From the IMG/VR virus record IMGVR_UViG_3300022074_000334, positions 1 to 25,938 of that record: DNA of 25,938 bases; one strand, 5' to 3'. The notes under the pieces were generated by a model that did no database searches, was not told the DNA's origin, and saw only the letters and a list, made by a program, of their open reading frames with translations. The position numbers were made by a program, and so were the translations under genes. Origin of the DNA: a virus. Shown here piece after piece: positions 2,990 to 22,965 of the stretch. Within the stretch, counting starts at the first letter, position 1. Each line of letters begins with the position of its first letter.

Positions 2990-3619
2990 TTAAAATAATC
3001 TTTGTTGTGCTTTGTGTTGTTCAATTCGTTTTATTGCTGCATAATAATAGTCTTTGTCTAATTCACACGCGGTTAAGTCAAACCCTAAATTGTGGCACGC
3101 AATCGCAATACTTCCACTACCCAAATGCGTGTCGAGTATTCTAAAACCGTCTTTTGCGTAATTCATTAAAAGCCATTCGTAAAGTTTTACTGGTTTTTGT
3201 GTATTGTGAATTTTTTTTATTTGATTATGTTTGTGAATAGAATATTCAAAAATTTTTGCGGGTTTTTTTAAGCCCATAGATACAAAAGCCAATTCACATC
3301 TTGCAAAGTTTGGCATTGCTTGTTTTTTATCCCAAATTAAAAAATATTCGCTTTCGGGTAATGTAAAATTATTTGCACCCCAAACAATTTGATTTTTACT
3401 TACTCTAAATAATTCTTGCCAATATTTATTTGATGGTTTTGTATTATTAATTAATTCCATTTTTTGAAACCGTTTAGCGTGAACATCTTTAATTGTTGGG
3501 TTTTCTGTAACTTTTTTAAATCTCTCAATCCCATAAGGCGGATCAACAATCGCCAAATCAAAATAATTGTCTTCATAACGCGCCATTAATTCCATATTGT
3601 CCTCGTTTGTTATTTTCAT
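2990..3619 (-). CDS. DNA N6-adenine methyltransferase-like, class beta order
   Basis: A 209-residue SAM-dependent DNA methyltransferase. The catalytic motif DPPYG (residues 26-30) precedes the SAM-binding motif LDTHLGSGS near the C-terminus, the circularly permuted beta order. DPPY favours adenine-N6 methylation. I start at the ATG at 3617-3619, seven bases after the preceding stop, rather than an upstream ATG that would add a hydrophobic 14-residue extension and overlap the preceding gene. No cognate restriction enzyme is obvious, so the likely role is protecting phage DNA from host restriction. The protein ends in QQRLF, a possible sliding-clamp-binding peptide shared with the other methyltransferase here. 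Confidence 0.85.
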   Translation of the reverse strand: MKITNEDNMELMARYEDNYFDLAIVDPPYGIERFKKVTENPTIKDVHAKRFQKMELINNTKPSNKYWQELFRVSKNQIVWGANNFTLPESEYFLIWDKKQAMPNFARCELAFVSMGLKKPAKIFEYSIHKHNQIKKIHNTQKPVKLYEWLLMNYAKDGFRILDTHLGSGSIAIACHNLGFDLTACELDKDYYYAAIKRIEQHKAQQRLF

Positions 3620-3626
3620 TTTTGTT

Positions 3627-4160
3627 TTAAATTTTAGGTAAATAATAAAATAAATTTTCAATGTTTTTTAAATCGGTGTTTTTAATTTCAAAATTTGATG
3701 TTTTCAATGGAAACGTTGTTCCGTCTTTTAATGTTCTGATTGTGCCTTTTTTTATCAACGTTGCAACTTTCAACAATTCTTTTTTACCAATATAACCGCA
3801 AATTGTCAATTCATTTTTTCGCTTGTTAAGTGAACAAAATATATAAATATCACAATCATATTTTATTTGATGCGCCACGAAATTGTTGACAAAATAATCT
3901 TTGACATCAACATTGCGTCCCATTGTTTTAACGTCAATTTTTAGGCCTTTGTATTCAAAATCAAAACCGCCGTCAAAACCATTTTTAAATTCGTGATCAA
4001 AACCAAACAATCGTTTCACCATTATTTCACCAATCAATCCAACGAATTGTTGTTCTTTTGAACCGTTGAATTCAAAGCGGTTGCCTATATTATGTTGATT
4101 GACGAAATGCCAAACATCATTTTTTAGTTTTTCCGGGATTTTGAATTTTTTATAATTCAT
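3627..4160 (-). CDS. PD-(D/E)XK superfamily nuclease-like protein
   Basis: A 177-residue protein with a restriction-endonuclease-like core: an early Glu in GLIGE (E45), Asp in GGFDFEY (D67) and the DVK pair (D76, K78), in the spacing expected of PD-(D/E)XK enzymes. A hydrophobic strand with DIYIFCSL follows. The ATG overlaps the end of the initiator gene by 11 bases, so it is coupled to replication. Possible roles are a structure-specific or repair nuclease, a restriction-type enzyme paired with the methyltransferase immediately downstream, or nicking. The pairing with a methyltransferase is suggestive, but the sequence does not settle it. Confidence 0.6.
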   Translation of the reverse strand: MNYKKFKIPEKLKNDVWHFVNQHNIGNRFEFNGSKEQQFVGLIGEIMVKRLFGFDHEFKNGFDGGFDFEYKGLKIDVKTMGRNVDVKDYFVNNFVAHQIKYDCDIYIFCSLNKRKNELTICGYIGKKELLKVATLIKKGTIRTLKDGTTFPLKTSNFEIKNTDLKNIENLFYYLPKI

Positions 4161-5052
4161 TCAAAACGTATTTTTTTAATTCCTGGAATTCGTTTGTCAT
4201 CATTAAACCCCGGATTTGGAATTCGTGAATGTCGCCATTTTTAGTTTTGGCGCCTATTTCTTTTTTTCCGTTGGACGGGTTTTTGTATATAAAAAATTCT
4301 TTAAGGTTTTTAATTTTAGTAAATCCAACCGGTTTTTGTTTTGCCTTATGTTGGATCATAAAGCGGTCAATGTATTTGATGCCGTTTTTGTCGGTGTTTC
4401 TTAATTTTAGAATTGATAAAAAATTATTTTGCCAAAACTCATCATTTCGCAAATTTTTAGAAACATTGTAAACTTCGCGCAAATCGTAACCGTCCAACCT
4501 TTGCAGTTTGTCCAAACAATCCAACCATTTGATTTTTTGGGTTTCGGTTTTTGGGCGGTATTTCAAATCAAATAATGCTGCAAAATGCGGAAACGCCGTT
4601 TTGGTTTTATCGTCAAATTGGCGCTTTTCCGATTTTGTGGGTATTTCTTTTTTTAGTATTTCTTTATTAGTATAGTTTATATTAGTATTACTTTGTTGCG
4701 GATTTACCGCAGCGGTAAAAACCGCCGCGGTTTTTCCGGCGCCGGTTTTTCCGGTTGCGGTGTCATTTAGATGATAATTATATCCCGCGAATTTGCCGCC
4801 CTTGCGAACCTCAACGCGCACCAAAAAACCCGTTTCAATCAATTCTTTTATTCTTTTGTTAATGGCGTCTTTGCCCTCTTTAAAATGGCCGCAAATGAAT
4901 TGCACGGTCATTTCGGTGTTTGAATCGTGGGAAAAAAGCCAACAATATAAACCGGTCGAAGCTGCTGAAATGCCTTTGTGTCTAAATATTGCATTCGGAA
5001 CAACCGTGAACCGGTCAAATTTTTTTGGCTTGAAAATCTTATTGTATTGCAT
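4150..5052 (-). CDS. Replication initiator, lambda O-like winged-helix protein
   Basis: A 300-residue protein. The N-terminal 95 residues look like a winged helix of the type seen in phage initiators (a VPNAIFRHKG segment, a helical HTH region, and a wing ending GKFAGYNYHL). A low-complexity linker of Thr, Ala, Lys and Asn follows at about residues 98-140, then a helical C-terminal part with KWLDCLDKLQRLDG and FWQNNF. The linker-coding DNA carries dense repeats resembling a replication origin, the arrangement found in lambda gene O. Together with a DnaA-IV-like protein and a primase-helicase in the same block, this suggests that it binds the origin and loads the helicase. Family membership is inferred from architecture, not from a database match. 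Confidence 0.68.
   Translation of the reverse strand: MQYNKIFKPKKFDRFTVVPNAIFRHKGISAASTGLYCWLFSHDSNTEMTVQFICGHFKEGKDAINKRIKELIETGFLVRVEVRKGGKFAGYNYHLNDTATGKTGAGKTAAVFTAAVNPQQSNTNINYTNKEILKKEIPTKSEKRQFDDKTKTAFPHFAALFDLKYRPKTETQKIKWLDCLDKLQRLDGYDLREVYNVSKNLRNDEFWQNNFLSILKLRNTDKNGIKYIDRFMIQHKAKQKPVGFTKIKNLKEFFIYKNPSNGKKEIGAKTKNGDIHEFQIRGLMMTNEFQELKKYVLNEL
4653..4760. other. Candidate replication origin inside the initiator gene
   Basis: An AT-rich part has TTAGTAT three times (4653-4659, 4667-4673, 4682-4688; spacing 14 and 15). A GC-rich part follows: inverted repeat TTACCGC-A-GCGGTAA (4704-4718), inverted repeat AAAAACCGC-C-GCGGTTTTT (4717-4735), direct repeats CGGTTTTTCCGG (4728-4739, 4743-4754; spacing 15) and palindrome CCGGCGCCGG (4736-4745). 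Iterons beside an AT-rich unwinding region, located in the linker of the initiator gene, match the lambda ori plan. Origin function is inferred. Confidence 0.55.
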
Positions 5053-5063
5053 ATTTAAAAAAA

Positions 5064-5107
5064 TAACCCTATCAAATCGGCGGTCGCGGTCGCTTCATCA
5101 ATAGGGT
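5064..5107 (-). other. Hairpin in the leader of the initiator gene
   Basis: AACCCTAT (5064-5071) and ATAGGGTT (5100-5107) form a perfect 8-bp stem around a GC-rich 28-base loop containing CGACCG twice. On the minus strand the stem is followed by TATTTTTTT and, within about 20 bases, by the initiator ATG. It could be a weak terminator or attenuator, a binding site, or a translational control element. Confidence 0.4.
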
Positions 5108-5158
5108 TTTGGTAAAATTTTAATGCCGCGACGCAAAAAACAAATTTATAAAAATTAA

Positions 5159-5404
5159 TCACAAAATCAAATTGTATTTTATATGATCGCAAAAGGAACG
5201 TAAATCGTCAAATATTTTTTTCAGTTGTTCCAATTCAATGTCTCCGTCCTCGAATTTATACCATAGTAATTCAATGAACAAATCAAATTCAACGCGGGTT
5301 GATTTGCCAATGTAATTGTAAGAAACCGCGATGTCGTCCGGTGAACTTTGTGTGAAACGAATTTTTTGATTTTTATCATCAAAATAAATAGTGTGATATT
5401 TCAT
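5159..5404 (-). CDS. Hypothetical 81-residue acidic protein
   Basis: A small, acidic protein with a predicted beta-rich N-terminus (KYHTIYFDD) and helical C-terminus (LEQLKKIFDDLRSF). Its ATG overlaps the stop of the VRR-NUC gene in an ATGA junction, so it is translationally coupled to it. I recognise no family. Possible roles are a nuclease partner or an early regulator, without direct evidence. Confidence 0.6.
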   Translation of the reverse strand: MKYHTIYFDDKNQKIRFTQSSPDDIAVSYNYIGKSTRVEFDLFIELLWYKFEDGDIELEQLKKIFDDLRSFCDHIKYNLIL

Positions 5405-6028: not shown

Positions 6029-6769
6029 TTAAAATAATTTTTGTTGTGCTTTGTTTTGAGTTAATTTTTTATTTGACATTTCAAAATATTTTGTTGAAAT
6101 TTCACTTCCAATAAAGTTTCGATTGTTATTTAATGAAGCGATTGCAGTTGTTCCACTTCCCATAAAAGGATCATAAACCACATCATTTTCATCGGTGCAA
6201 CCCAAAACAAAATTGTTTGCTAATTGAATTGGAAATGGCGCCGGGTGTGGATTTTTAGTGTCGGCGCCAATTCTTATAATGCTATTTTTAAAAGACATTT
6301 GATTTCTGTAAAATTTAGTTTTTGAATTTTTACTTTTTTTTATCCAAAAAACATATTCGTTAATTGGAAAAAAATAGCTTTTGTCTAATTTTGGGGTGTT
6401 AAATCGATCCCAAATCAAAACTTGTTTGACCGGAAAATCATAAATAAAACTTGGGTGAATTGTGTTGTGATTGCTTAAAATGTCCATATGATTATAAAAA
6501 ATGCTTCCGGTTTCTTTTAATATTCTACAACATTCCTTTAAAATTTTAGTTTGCCATTGAGCATAATGTATTGGCGATAAATTGTCATTATAAGAATCAT
6601 ATTCGATTGTCCTAAAATTTGACGAATCCTTTTTGCTTATTTTTTTAGTTTTTGTATAAAAGTTTTTATTGTAAGGCGGTGAAGTTATAATTAAATCAAC
6701 CGAACAATCATCAATTTTTGACATTGTTGTCAAACAATCTTCATTGTATATTTTATTGTTTTCAATCAT
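6029..6769 (-). CDS. DNA methyltransferase, TSPPY type (N4-cytosine or N6-adenine)
   Basis: A 246-residue SAM-dependent DNA methyltransferase. The catalytic TSPPYN (29-34) precedes the SAM-binding motif DPFMGSGTT (200-208), the beta order. SPPY is typical of N4-cytosine enzymes but also occurs in N6-adenine ones, so the target base is open. Its start overlaps the end of the DnaA-like gene (ATGA), showing coupling. It ends in KAQQKLF, close to the KAQQRLF end of the other methyltransferase. The probable role is protection from host restriction or marking phage DNA; no paired restriction enzyme is evident. Confidence 0.88.
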   Translation of the reverse strand: MIENNKIYNEDCLTTMSKIDDCSVDLIITSPPYNKNFYTKTKKISKKDSSNFRTIEYDSYNDNLSPIHYAQWQTKILKECCRILKETGSIFYNHMDILSNHNTIHPSFIYDFPVKQVLIWDRFNTPKLDKSYFFPINEYVFWIKKSKNSKTKFYRNQMSFKNSIIRIGADTKNPHPAPFPIQLANNFVLGCTDENDVVYDPFMGSGTTAIASLNNNRNFIGSEISTKYFEMSNKKLTQNKAQQKLF

Positions 6770-7143
6770 TTTTGATATTTTTTAAGTTGTTTTTTTAATA
6801 CGTCGTTTTCAATTAATAATGTATTGTATTTGTAAAGTAATGATTCGGGCGTCATTTTTTTGGTTTCATAGCTGCTTAAAATAATTAATTTCAACGCCTG
6901 AAAATCAACGCGAAAAAAGTCGTCCCAATTAACCCAATTATCCAAATTCGCCAAACCATATAAAACCGAAGCGTGATCGCGTCCAACGGCCGCACCGATT
7001 TTTTTAACTGATTTTTTAGTTGTGTATTTTGCAAGCCAAAAATAAACCGCGCGCGCCATAACCAATTCACGTTCACGGCTGTTTTTTGTGATGTCACAAT
7101 TGAAATGTTTGTTGACTTTTTTTATCAAATATTCTAATTCCAT
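6766..7143 (-). CDS. Stand-alone DnaA domain IV-like DNA-binding protein
   Basis: A 125-residue protein whose residues 15-65 resemble DnaA domain IV, the part that binds DnaA boxes: an ARAVYFWLAKY helix, a KSVKKIGAAV helix and the signature GRDHASV (54-60), matching the GRDH(S/T)TV of DnaA. It has no AAA+ ATPase domain. A C-terminal coiled-coil-like tail (LLYKYNTLLIENDVLKKQLKK) could mediate dimerisation. It sits between the RecE-like exonuclease and a methyltransferase. It could direct the host initiation machinery to the phage, compete for DnaA boxes, or regulate transcription. Confidence 0.8.
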   Translation of the reverse strand: MELEYLIKKVNKHFNCDITKNSRERELVMARAVYFWLAKYTTKKSVKKIGAAVGRDHASVLYGLANLDNWVNWDDFFRVDFQALKLIILSSYETKKMTPESLLYKYNTLLIENDVLKKQLKKYQK

Positions 7144-22095: not shown

Positions 22096-22108
22096 TTTAT
22101 AAAGTTAT

Positions 22109-22136
22109 AAAAAAAAGCGGTTAAATTAATAACCGC
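22109..22136 (-). terminator. Rho-independent terminator after the tiny-gene cassette
   Basis: On the minus strand GCGGTTA-TTAATT-TAACCGC (22117-22136) forms a perfect 7-bp stem, followed by eight T (22109-22116). Confidence 0.88.
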
Positions 22137-22163
22137 CTTTTCAAATCAAACTAACTAATAAAA

Positions 22164-22304
22164 TTAATCTTCGCTATTTAAGGCCAACGAAAAGCCGATA
22201 ACATATAAAAATATTGTTCCGATAATATCGTTATAAAGAAACATTTGACGTGTGGCAAAAAACCAAAACAACATTGTTAAAATAAAGTTAAGAAATTTTT
22301 TCAT
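22164..22304 (-). CDS. 46-residue membrane protein
   Basis: Starts at the ATG at 22302-22304, in an ATGA overlap with the stop of the zinc-finger-like gene. Two hydrophobic helices (LNFILTMLFWFFA and GTIFLYVIGFSLAL) are joined by a short polar turn, with a basic N-terminus and an acidic end (NSED). It could be a small inner-membrane protein, such as an exclusion factor or holin-like peptide. The last gene of the cassette, followed by a terminator. Confidence 0.6.
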   Translation of the reverse strand: MKKFLNFILTMLFWFFATRQMFLYNDIIGTIFLYVIGFSLALNSED

Positions 22305-22426
22305 AGTTGGTCCGCTTTAAAGCAAATATCTGAACAAACAAAAACGTCCTCAAATAATTTGACGCCGCAAACACGGCATTCGAATTCCGGTTCATCGTCC
22401 GGAAAATAATCTAATCCCCACGCCAT
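22301..22426 (-). CDS. 41-residue zinc-ribbon-like protein
   Basis: Starts at the ATG at 22424-22426, in a TAATG overlap with the previous gene. It has four Cys in the pattern CRVCG...CSDIC (C17, C20, C31, C35) suggesting a small zinc knuckle, and an acidic N-terminus (FPDDEPEFE). Such mini-proteins often bind nucleic acid or a host protein. No family is recognised. Confidence 0.6.
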   Translation of the reverse strand: MAWGLDYFPDDEPEFECRVCGVKLFEDVFVCSDICFKADQL

Positions 22427-22569
22427 TAGTTAATATTTAAAAGGTTCAACATTCTATTTAAAAATTTATCGAATTTGCTTTGAGATTCCAAATTTTCAAT
22501 TTCTTTTTTGGTGTAAACATTCACACGTTTTCCGTCGTGAATGATTGTTAATCCGGTTGTTGTTTTCAT
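22426..22569 (-). CDS. 47-residue basic protein
   Basis: Starts at the ATG at 22567-22569. It begins with a beta-like section (GLTIIHDGKRVNVYT) and continues as a helix (KKEIENLESQSKFDKFLNRML). The TAATG overlap with the next gene shows coupling. A stable hairpin lies 14 bases before the ATG. Function unknown. Confidence 0.58.
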   Translation of the reverse strand: MKTTTGLTIIHDGKRVNVYTKKEIENLESQSKFDKFLNRMLNLLNIN

Positions 22570-22583
22570 TTGTCTAAAATTGT

Positions 22584-22601
22584 GGCCGGGTTTCCCCGGC
22601 C
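22584..22601 (-). other. GAAA-loop hairpin between two tiny genes
   Basis: On the minus strand GGCCGGG-GAAA-CCCGGCC is a perfect 7-bp GC stem with a GNRA-type tetraloop. No T tract follows, so it is not a standard terminator. It may protect the mRNA or control translation of the gene starting at 22569. Confidence 0.65.
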
Positions 22602-22621
22602 GGTTAATGTTTTTAATTATT

Positions 22622-22765
22622 TTAATATCTACTGTTTAATACTAATTTGATTGCTTCTAAAATCGAACATTGATATTTATTGGTTTCAAATAATACCGCA
22701 ATATTTTGTTCGTTTGTGAAATTTAATTCTTTTGTCGCTAATTGTATTTCTTTCAATTTGTACAT
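22622..22765 (-). CDS. 47-residue protein, first gene of the tiny-gene cassette
   Basis: Starts at the ATG at 22763-22765, 38 bases after the TACTTTTG box. It is mostly helical (LKEIQLATKELNF, EAIKLVLNSR) with one Cys. No family is recognised. Its own promoter and its place behind the capsid gene fit a moron-type gene. Confidence 0.6.
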   Translation of the reverse strand: MYKLKEIQLATKELNFTNEQNIAVLFETNKYQCSILEAIKLVLNSRY

Positions 22766-22803
22766 AATGTTTAATTTTAATAGTTTGTTGTTGTTTGATG
22801 ATT

Positions 22804-22842
22804 CAAAAGTACATTTTATTTTGGAATTAAAAAAATATTTTC
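22804..22842 (-). promoter_or_regulatory. Promoter of the tiny-gene cassette
   Basis: On the minus strand TACTTTTG (22804-22811) is a perfect TAnnTTTG -7 box. GAAAATATTTTTTT (22829-22842) lies 17 bases upstream. It matches the early promoter at 9131-9170 in both parts and stands just below the capsid gene terminator. Confidence 0.7.
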
Positions 22843-22909
22843 ACTTTTTTTGAAAGTTTTTTTTGTTTTTTTTGTTTCTTATCTGTTGGGCGCCCTAAAA
22901 TAAAGGCAT

Positions 22910-22940
22910 AAAAAAAAGGCCCGGAATAAATCCAAGCCTT
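22910..22940 (-). terminator. Rho-independent terminator after the major capsid gene
   Basis: On the minus strand AAGGCTTGGA (22931-22940) pairs with TCCGGGCCTT (22916-22925) over 10 bp with two G-T pairs, then a run of T. Just before it, a perfect 14-base palindrome, CCGTAAAATTACGG (22959-22972), spans the stop codon. Confidence 0.88.
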
Positions 22941-22965
22941 TGTTTTTGGTTGATTATCCGTAAAA

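Follow-up and report, generated by a model that had tools for sequence, protein, structure and literature searches.

Few environmental phages have a known replication origin, and the locus described here raises the question of whether a marine phage carries its origin within the gene for its own replication initiator. The window, meaning the whole stretch of DNA that we analyzed, is a 25,938-base virus record that is linear and possibly a fragment. A first-pass annotation had placed a candidate origin in the linker of a lambda-O-like initiator gene. Our comparison of this sequence with its relatives indicates that positions 4640-4761 are very probably the phage's replication origin, carried within its initiator gene.

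The repeats lie in the disordered linker of an HTH_36-type initiator

The replication initiator gene (Table 1) encodes a product of 300 amino acids, for which an AlphaFold2 model gives two confident parts joined by a linker. Residues 26-76 match HTH_36 (PF13730; E=1e-6, above the curated cut-off), and the PHROG matches are to replication initiation (270/428), DnaD-like, and O-like families. The earlier description of the protein as lambda-O-like holds for its layout and for weak profile matches, but not for its DNA-binding domain, which is HTH_36; Pfam gave only this family and a sub-threshold Cullin_Nedd8, with no match to the lambda O family. Structure matches to solved initiators were weak (the best, at E 0.014, is a generic regulator, and the Rep-DNA complex 5kbj matches in fold at E 0.36), and a sequence search of solved structures returned mostly generic winged-helix regulators. 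The repeats do coincide with the protein linker, as first proposed: residues 101-143, encoded by the repeat-carrying stretch, have a pLDDT below 50 and are predicted to be disordered.

Table 1. Features of the initiator locus and its likely helicase partner, in window positions
Feature	Positions	Strand	Basis
Phage primase-helicase (Toprim + DnaB-like), likely partner to be loaded	1270-2943	minus	phrog_239 E=1.6e-88; Pfam Toprim, weak DnaB_C
Initiator gene: N-terminal winged HTH, disordered linker, C-terminal domain	4150-5052	minus	PF13730, PHROG, AlphaFold2 model
C-terminal domain, putative helicase recruitment; kept through domain and iteron swaps	4153-4617	minus	PHROG O-like/DnaD-like matches, breakpoints
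Stretch under DNA-level constraint, codons 96-140	4633-4767	minus	synonymous codon identity
AT-rich tract, probable DNA unwinding element, three ATACTAA/TTAGTAT copies	4640-4701	minus	stability profile; TACTAA enrichment in distant relatives
Iteron 4, ACCGCTGCGGTAAAT	4702-4716	minus	
Iteron 3, ACCGCGGCGGTTTTT	4717-4731	minus	
Iteron 2, ACCGGCGCCGGAAAA, includes the CCGGCGCCGG palindrome	4732-4746	minus	
Iteron 1, ACCGCAACCGGAAAA	4747-4761	minus	
DNA-binding domain, about residues 14-95; exchanged in relatives as one unit with the iterons	4768-5013	minus	
Leader, covarying pseudoknot or kissing loop	5053-5160	minus	covariation, alignments

The repeats reported at first reading are all present, namely three TTAGTAT copies in AT-rich DNA (4653-4659, 4667-4673, and 4682-4688; spacing 14 and 15), two CGGTTTTTCCGG direct repeats (4728-4739 and 4743-4754, offset 15), the CCGGCGCCGG palindrome (4736-4745), and the inverted repeats of the GC-rich set. 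Only two further TTAGTAT copies occur in the window, both on the other strand. Shuffling predicts 0.02 copies of CGGTTTTTCCGG for the window, and two copies never occurred together in 100 shuffles; likewise, about 400 Markov simulations of the window yielded neither four ACCGN3CGG-type cores within 60 bp nor three TTAGTAT within 45 bp. The GC-rich set is real, but it is larger and more regular than had been described. Read on the coding strand from 4761 to 4702, it consists of four tandem 15-bp units in exact 15-bp steps, each an ACCG-N3/4-CGG dyad with an A/T spacer. In the direction of transcription, these four dyad units come first and the tract with the ATACTAA repeats follows, with a GC content of 58% in the array versus 23% in the tract, and the junction between the two is the sharpest duplex-stability step between adjacent 60-bp blocks in the whole window. 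The TTAGTAT copies sit in this adjoining AT-rich stretch, outside the 15-bp array. The initiator-binding iterons are likely the GC-rich units, while TTAGTAT (ATACTAA on the coding strand) is likely part of a conserved AT-rich unwinding element. A dyad-center test found excess complementarity at both gaps (44% versus 32% for N4; 35% versus 27% for N5, the A-tract), which somewhat favors the N4 gap as dyad center but is not decisive.

Selection acts on the linker DNA

We fetched 80 relatives and compared synonymous codons in 13 divergent sequences that share the DNA-binding domain, the window included. Over codons 96-140, the same codon was used in 87% of same-amino-acid cases, compared to an expectation of 66% calculated per amino acid from the rest of the gene (Mann-Whitney p=2e-7), and the best other 45-codon window of the gene reached 0.73. 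In protein identity, most of the linker ranks among the least conserved parts of the gene; the DNA is kept in relatives while the linker protein drifts, the outcome that the first-pass annotation had named as a check. The reading phases of the units also change, being 1-1-1-1 in the window, 2-2-1-0 in L032/L033, 2-2-0 in L066, and 1-1-1-0 or 1-1-1-1-0 in most of L016-L030. The same units are thus translated in all three reading frames within one homologous family, and the encoded peptides diverge (NHRNRKNRDGKT versus TGKTGAGKT) though the DNA units persist. Together, synonymous conservation, low protein identity, and phase changes indicate that selection acts on the DNA. One DNA signal read in three frames is a clear case of a regulatory element overriding protein sequence.

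With 15 bp corresponding to five codons, and a repetitive linker for which disorder is predicted, the repeats might be a by-product of coding for pentapeptides in a low-complexity linker. This explanation is hardly credible and already contradicted by the unusually conserved synonymous sites, by units in three frames and also at 14-bp steps, and by a linker codon choice that deviates from the rest of the gene. It is also highly improbable that the palindromes serve as RNA hairpins in the initiator mRNA, acting in attenuation, stability, or translation control. RNA folding is indeed strong (z=-4.8 in the window and -2.3 to -7 in five relatives), but tandem dyads of any kind fold in this way, the predicted pairings vary between relatives, and the B-type iterons described below give z=-0.7; moreover, hairpins explain neither why the units keep to a fixed period of 15 bp with A/T spacers nor why an AT-rich motif adjoins them.

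The DNA-binding domain and the iterons are exchanged together

One group of relatives (L035-L056) has another N-terminal domain and other repeats (TTGAAGAAAAGTTMA), joined to a C-terminal part up to 97% identical to that of the window. In L036, the flanks are 84-94% DNA-identical to the window, and the segment corresponding to 4685-5160, which comprises the DNA-binding domain, the iterons, and the leader, is replaced. Six relatives have their crossovers at 4660-4684, immediately beyond the array. When we assigned domain and iteron types across 80 loci, 33 were A/A, 21 were B/B, and no crossed combination was found. CCG..CGG units are present in 33 of 34 A-type loci and TTGAAnAAAAsTTmA units in 21 of 22 B-type loci; the two unmatched loci, one of each type, probably reflect truncated reading frames. 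That no mismatched pairs occur is consistent with a domain that must recognize its own iterons, although the two are adjacent and linkage alone therefore explains part of their co-transfer. The DNA-binding domain and iterons would then form a self-matched recognition cassette traded between phages, and the C-terminal domain may be kept through the exchange as a fit to the phage's own helicase. Such a swap would explain how origin specificity changes while the helicase partner does not.

A second clade (L058-L081), about 46% identical, mostly has other linker units (KPKPQKPKPQ, from CAAAAACCGAAACCC repeats), and a few of its members, such as L064, L066, and L074, have CCGnnnnCGG-like units, some of them read in a shifted frame.

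A covarying leader precedes the initiator gene

Immediately before the initiator start codon, a stretch of 108 nt is conserved in the window's clade and contains two crossing helices. Helix S1 pairs 5132-5126 with 5089-5083 (GTCGCGG/CCGCGAC), and S2 pairs 5107-5101 with 5072-5066 (ACCCTAT/ATAGGGT), followed by a U-rich tract with which the leader ends. S1 pairs fully (100%) across 20 sequences, and three of its base pairs carry changes in both partners (variants GTCGAGG/CCTCGAC, GTTGCGG/CCGCAAC, GTCGTGG/CCACGAC, and GTAACGG/CCGTTAC), and slid controls of the leader helices lose pairing. The first arm of S1 falls within the loop of a short hairpin with a stem that is variable too, which makes a pseudoknot or a kissing loop likely. 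By pattern search, the element also turned up ahead of one B-type initiator (L295:9093-9200); in the loci examined, it occurs only before initiator genes, except in L291 and L311, which are apparently unrelated. Rfam had no match in the window at gathering score, and only chance-level matches near the leader. Some plasmid initiator genes are controlled by pseudoknots, and by analogy this leader probably regulates initiator expression. The leader also contains a possible 35-aa ORF with a GTG start, ending NPIDEATATADLIGLFF.

The iteron and AT-tract layout recurs in unrelated phages

A DNA-only pattern, CCGNNNNCGGWAAANCCGNNNNCGGWAAANCC, found at least 119 stretches in viral contigs, compared to one for a base-swapped control of the same composition. 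In the 80 loci examined, the motif mostly lies about 100 residues into an ORF of 200-500 amino acids; 69 of these ORFs match phrog_428 (replication initiation) and 59 match HTH_36, while some of the remainder are truncated or in the wrong frame and at least one (L132) resembles a chance match. In distant relatives, TACTAA occurs within 90 bp downstream of the array at 8.6 per kb in sense, compared to 0.42 in antisense and 0.28 in background, an enrichment of about 31-fold 3' of the iterons on the sense strand only. Named phages with this layout include Lactobacillus LR1 and Enterococcus fHoEfm07, and Arthrobacter Wheelbite has the same layout in a more degenerate form.

In a protein-based sample, the half-site sequence is very variable (the loose CC-N6-GG form is present in 20 of 70), while the CTACTAAATACTAATA tract is widely kept, a pattern to be expected of iterons that follow their binding domain. 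The iteron sequence is not universal; in many HTH_36 relatives, the 15-bp units are different and richer in AT. In L210-L268, HTH_36 initiators have 15-bp linker units without CCG/CGG half-sites (e.g., TTAGATATAGAAAAA repeats) and retain CTACTAAATACTAATAATACTAA downstream of them; here, the AT-rich element is retained, and the iterons apparently drift in sequence along with the binding domain.

An autoregulatory operator, or an incompatibility or copy-control site, bound by the initiator while replication starts elsewhere, would predict the same DNA-level constraint and the same match of domain to iterons. We nevertheless consider such a site unlikely, since the array lies about 290 bp into the gene, away from its start, and precedes both an AT-rich motif that is conserved in a strand-specific way and the window's sharpest step in stability, and since the equivalent gene of phage 80alpha cannot be complemented in trans (PMC5499656).

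On balance, we lean toward a cross-phylum origin code, in which the HTH_36-type initiators of phages from Bacillota, Actinomycetota, and uncultured marine hosts would have a single grammar in common, with 15-bp CCGn3-4CGG-A/T-spacer iterons and a strand-specific TACTAAT unwinding element inside the initiator's linker, in any frame. Domain and iterons would be mobile as one cassette, and the window's clade would add a new pseudoknot or kissing-loop leader control. The open literature that we searched, with most subscription journals outside its coverage, describes embedded origins in lambda, SPP1, and 80alpha and holds no description of the shared iteron grammar; both the cross-phylum motif and the covarying leader appear undescribed there. 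Should this grammar be borne out, sequence could reveal the origin and the binding domain matched to it in many uncultured phages, iteron type could predict which phages are compatible, and hosts without plasmids could be given minimal replicons.

Genome context and other possible start sites

The initiator lies in a replication and recombination cluster that includes the primase-helicase, an exonuclease VIII-like protein, an SSB-like protein, a VRR-NUC nuclease, and methyltransferases. Two DNA methyltransferase genes (2990-3661 and 6029-6769) flank the replication block; in L036, the 3' one is apparently missing, with about 840 bp of other sequence downstream of the initiator (L036:6498-7339). 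At 6766-7143 on the minus strand is a small protein made up mainly of DnaA domain IV (Bac_DnaA_C, E=2e-13) without the ATPase domain, possibly a DnaA-box competitor or regulator. A Rhodobiaceae host was considered and set aside; the sole cellular match is a MAG contig labeled in this way and itself phage-like, which is too weak to name a host.

We rejected a DnaA-dependent origin, as the window has no DnaA-box cluster and its near-matches are at chance level (7 versus 7.1 expected). The GC skew minimum that the first-pass annotation suggested looking for was not clear at the locus, and skew is uninformative here. Replication from another site is very unlikely. A gene-free stretch at 22096-22965 could be such a site, and the exonuclease VIII-like and SSB-like proteins might support initiation by recombination, but this stretch has no iteron-like array and the window has no excess of DnaA boxes. 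The stretch, about 870 bp without a long ORF, is AT-rich, has no clear repeat array, and is flanked on one side by the gene for the major head protein and on the other by a small gene of unknown function; other gene-free stretches of the window gave only chance-like repeat pairs. Since the window is 26 kb, linear, and possibly a fragment, a second origin elsewhere is possible.

The proposal that the phage embeds its origin in the linker of its initiator is supported by DNA-level conservation, by the relatives, and by the 80alpha parallel. We infer from the sequence that the initiator binds the iterons and recruits the helicase via its C-terminal domain. The N-terminal winged-helix domain, probably as dimers, would bind the four iterons in an O-some-like complex, whose strain would melt the adjoining AT-rich tract; the C-terminal domain would then bring in the phage-encoded primase-helicase, and host polymerase would complete the replisome.

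Comparison with known systems

In lambda ori, the iterons come first and the AT tract after, within gene O, and the part of O that binds DNA precedes the origin while the part that recruits the helicase follows it. The lambda O iterons are 18-bp sequences unrelated to the units of the window. Lambda has four iterons and then an AT-rich tract in the middle of its initiator gene (PMC7466680), and the window also has iterons and an AT-rich tract in this place. Weak PHROG O-like matches to the window initiator lie mainly in its C-terminal domain, and the locus probably works like lambda ori, without membership in the lambda O family.

RepA_N plasmids have iterons inside the rep gene. Their initiators, such as staphylococcal Rep, have a winged-helix N-terminal domain like that of the window, with fold matches that are not significant (5kbj and 4pql, E 0.3-0.4) and no sequence match, and they belong to plasmids, not phages. 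The rep gene of Lactococcus phage TP901-1, annotated as encoding an experimentally shown replication protein, has CCAGATGTGG-type units at 15-bp spacing and then CTACTAAATACTAATA inside the initiator gene, but its units are fewer and weaker, with T-spacers, and its C-terminal domain is different. Neither motif is present in Tuc2009 Rep, which is annotated as holding its origin.

In layout, ORF20 of Staphylococcus phage 80alpha is the nearest characterized relative of the initiator. ORF20-21 drive autonomous plasmid replication, and an ORF20 deletion mutant failed to be complemented in trans, which led the authors to infer that the gene contains an origin (PMC5499656); these genetics suggest that the 80alpha origin is embedded in ORF20. 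The ORF20 (DQ517338) linker DNA runs CCAACGTTGGAAAAA CCGTTAACGGTAAAA CCAACAATGGAAAAA CCGTTAATGGTAAAT CG, then the ACTACTAATAAT AT-rich tract, and is read as GKTVNGKTNNGKT; it shares with the window the 15-bp period, the four dyad units, the reading frame, and the GKT reading. The half-site sequences and the C-terminal domain differ, and while 80alpha has an adjacent DnaC-like loader (ORF21), a common but not obligatory neighbor of such initiators, and no helicase of its own, the window phage has a fused primase-helicase, and the scan of replication-region proteins, which took in part of the small ORFs, turned up no DnaC-like gene. The N-terminal domain and the 15-bp dyads with AT tract in the linker match, which places the window locus with the HTH_36 phage initiators of the 80alpha ORF20 kind. 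Altogether, an origin within the initiator gene is well supported and of a known kind, as in 80alpha, and the motif behind it is more general than reported in the open literature searched.
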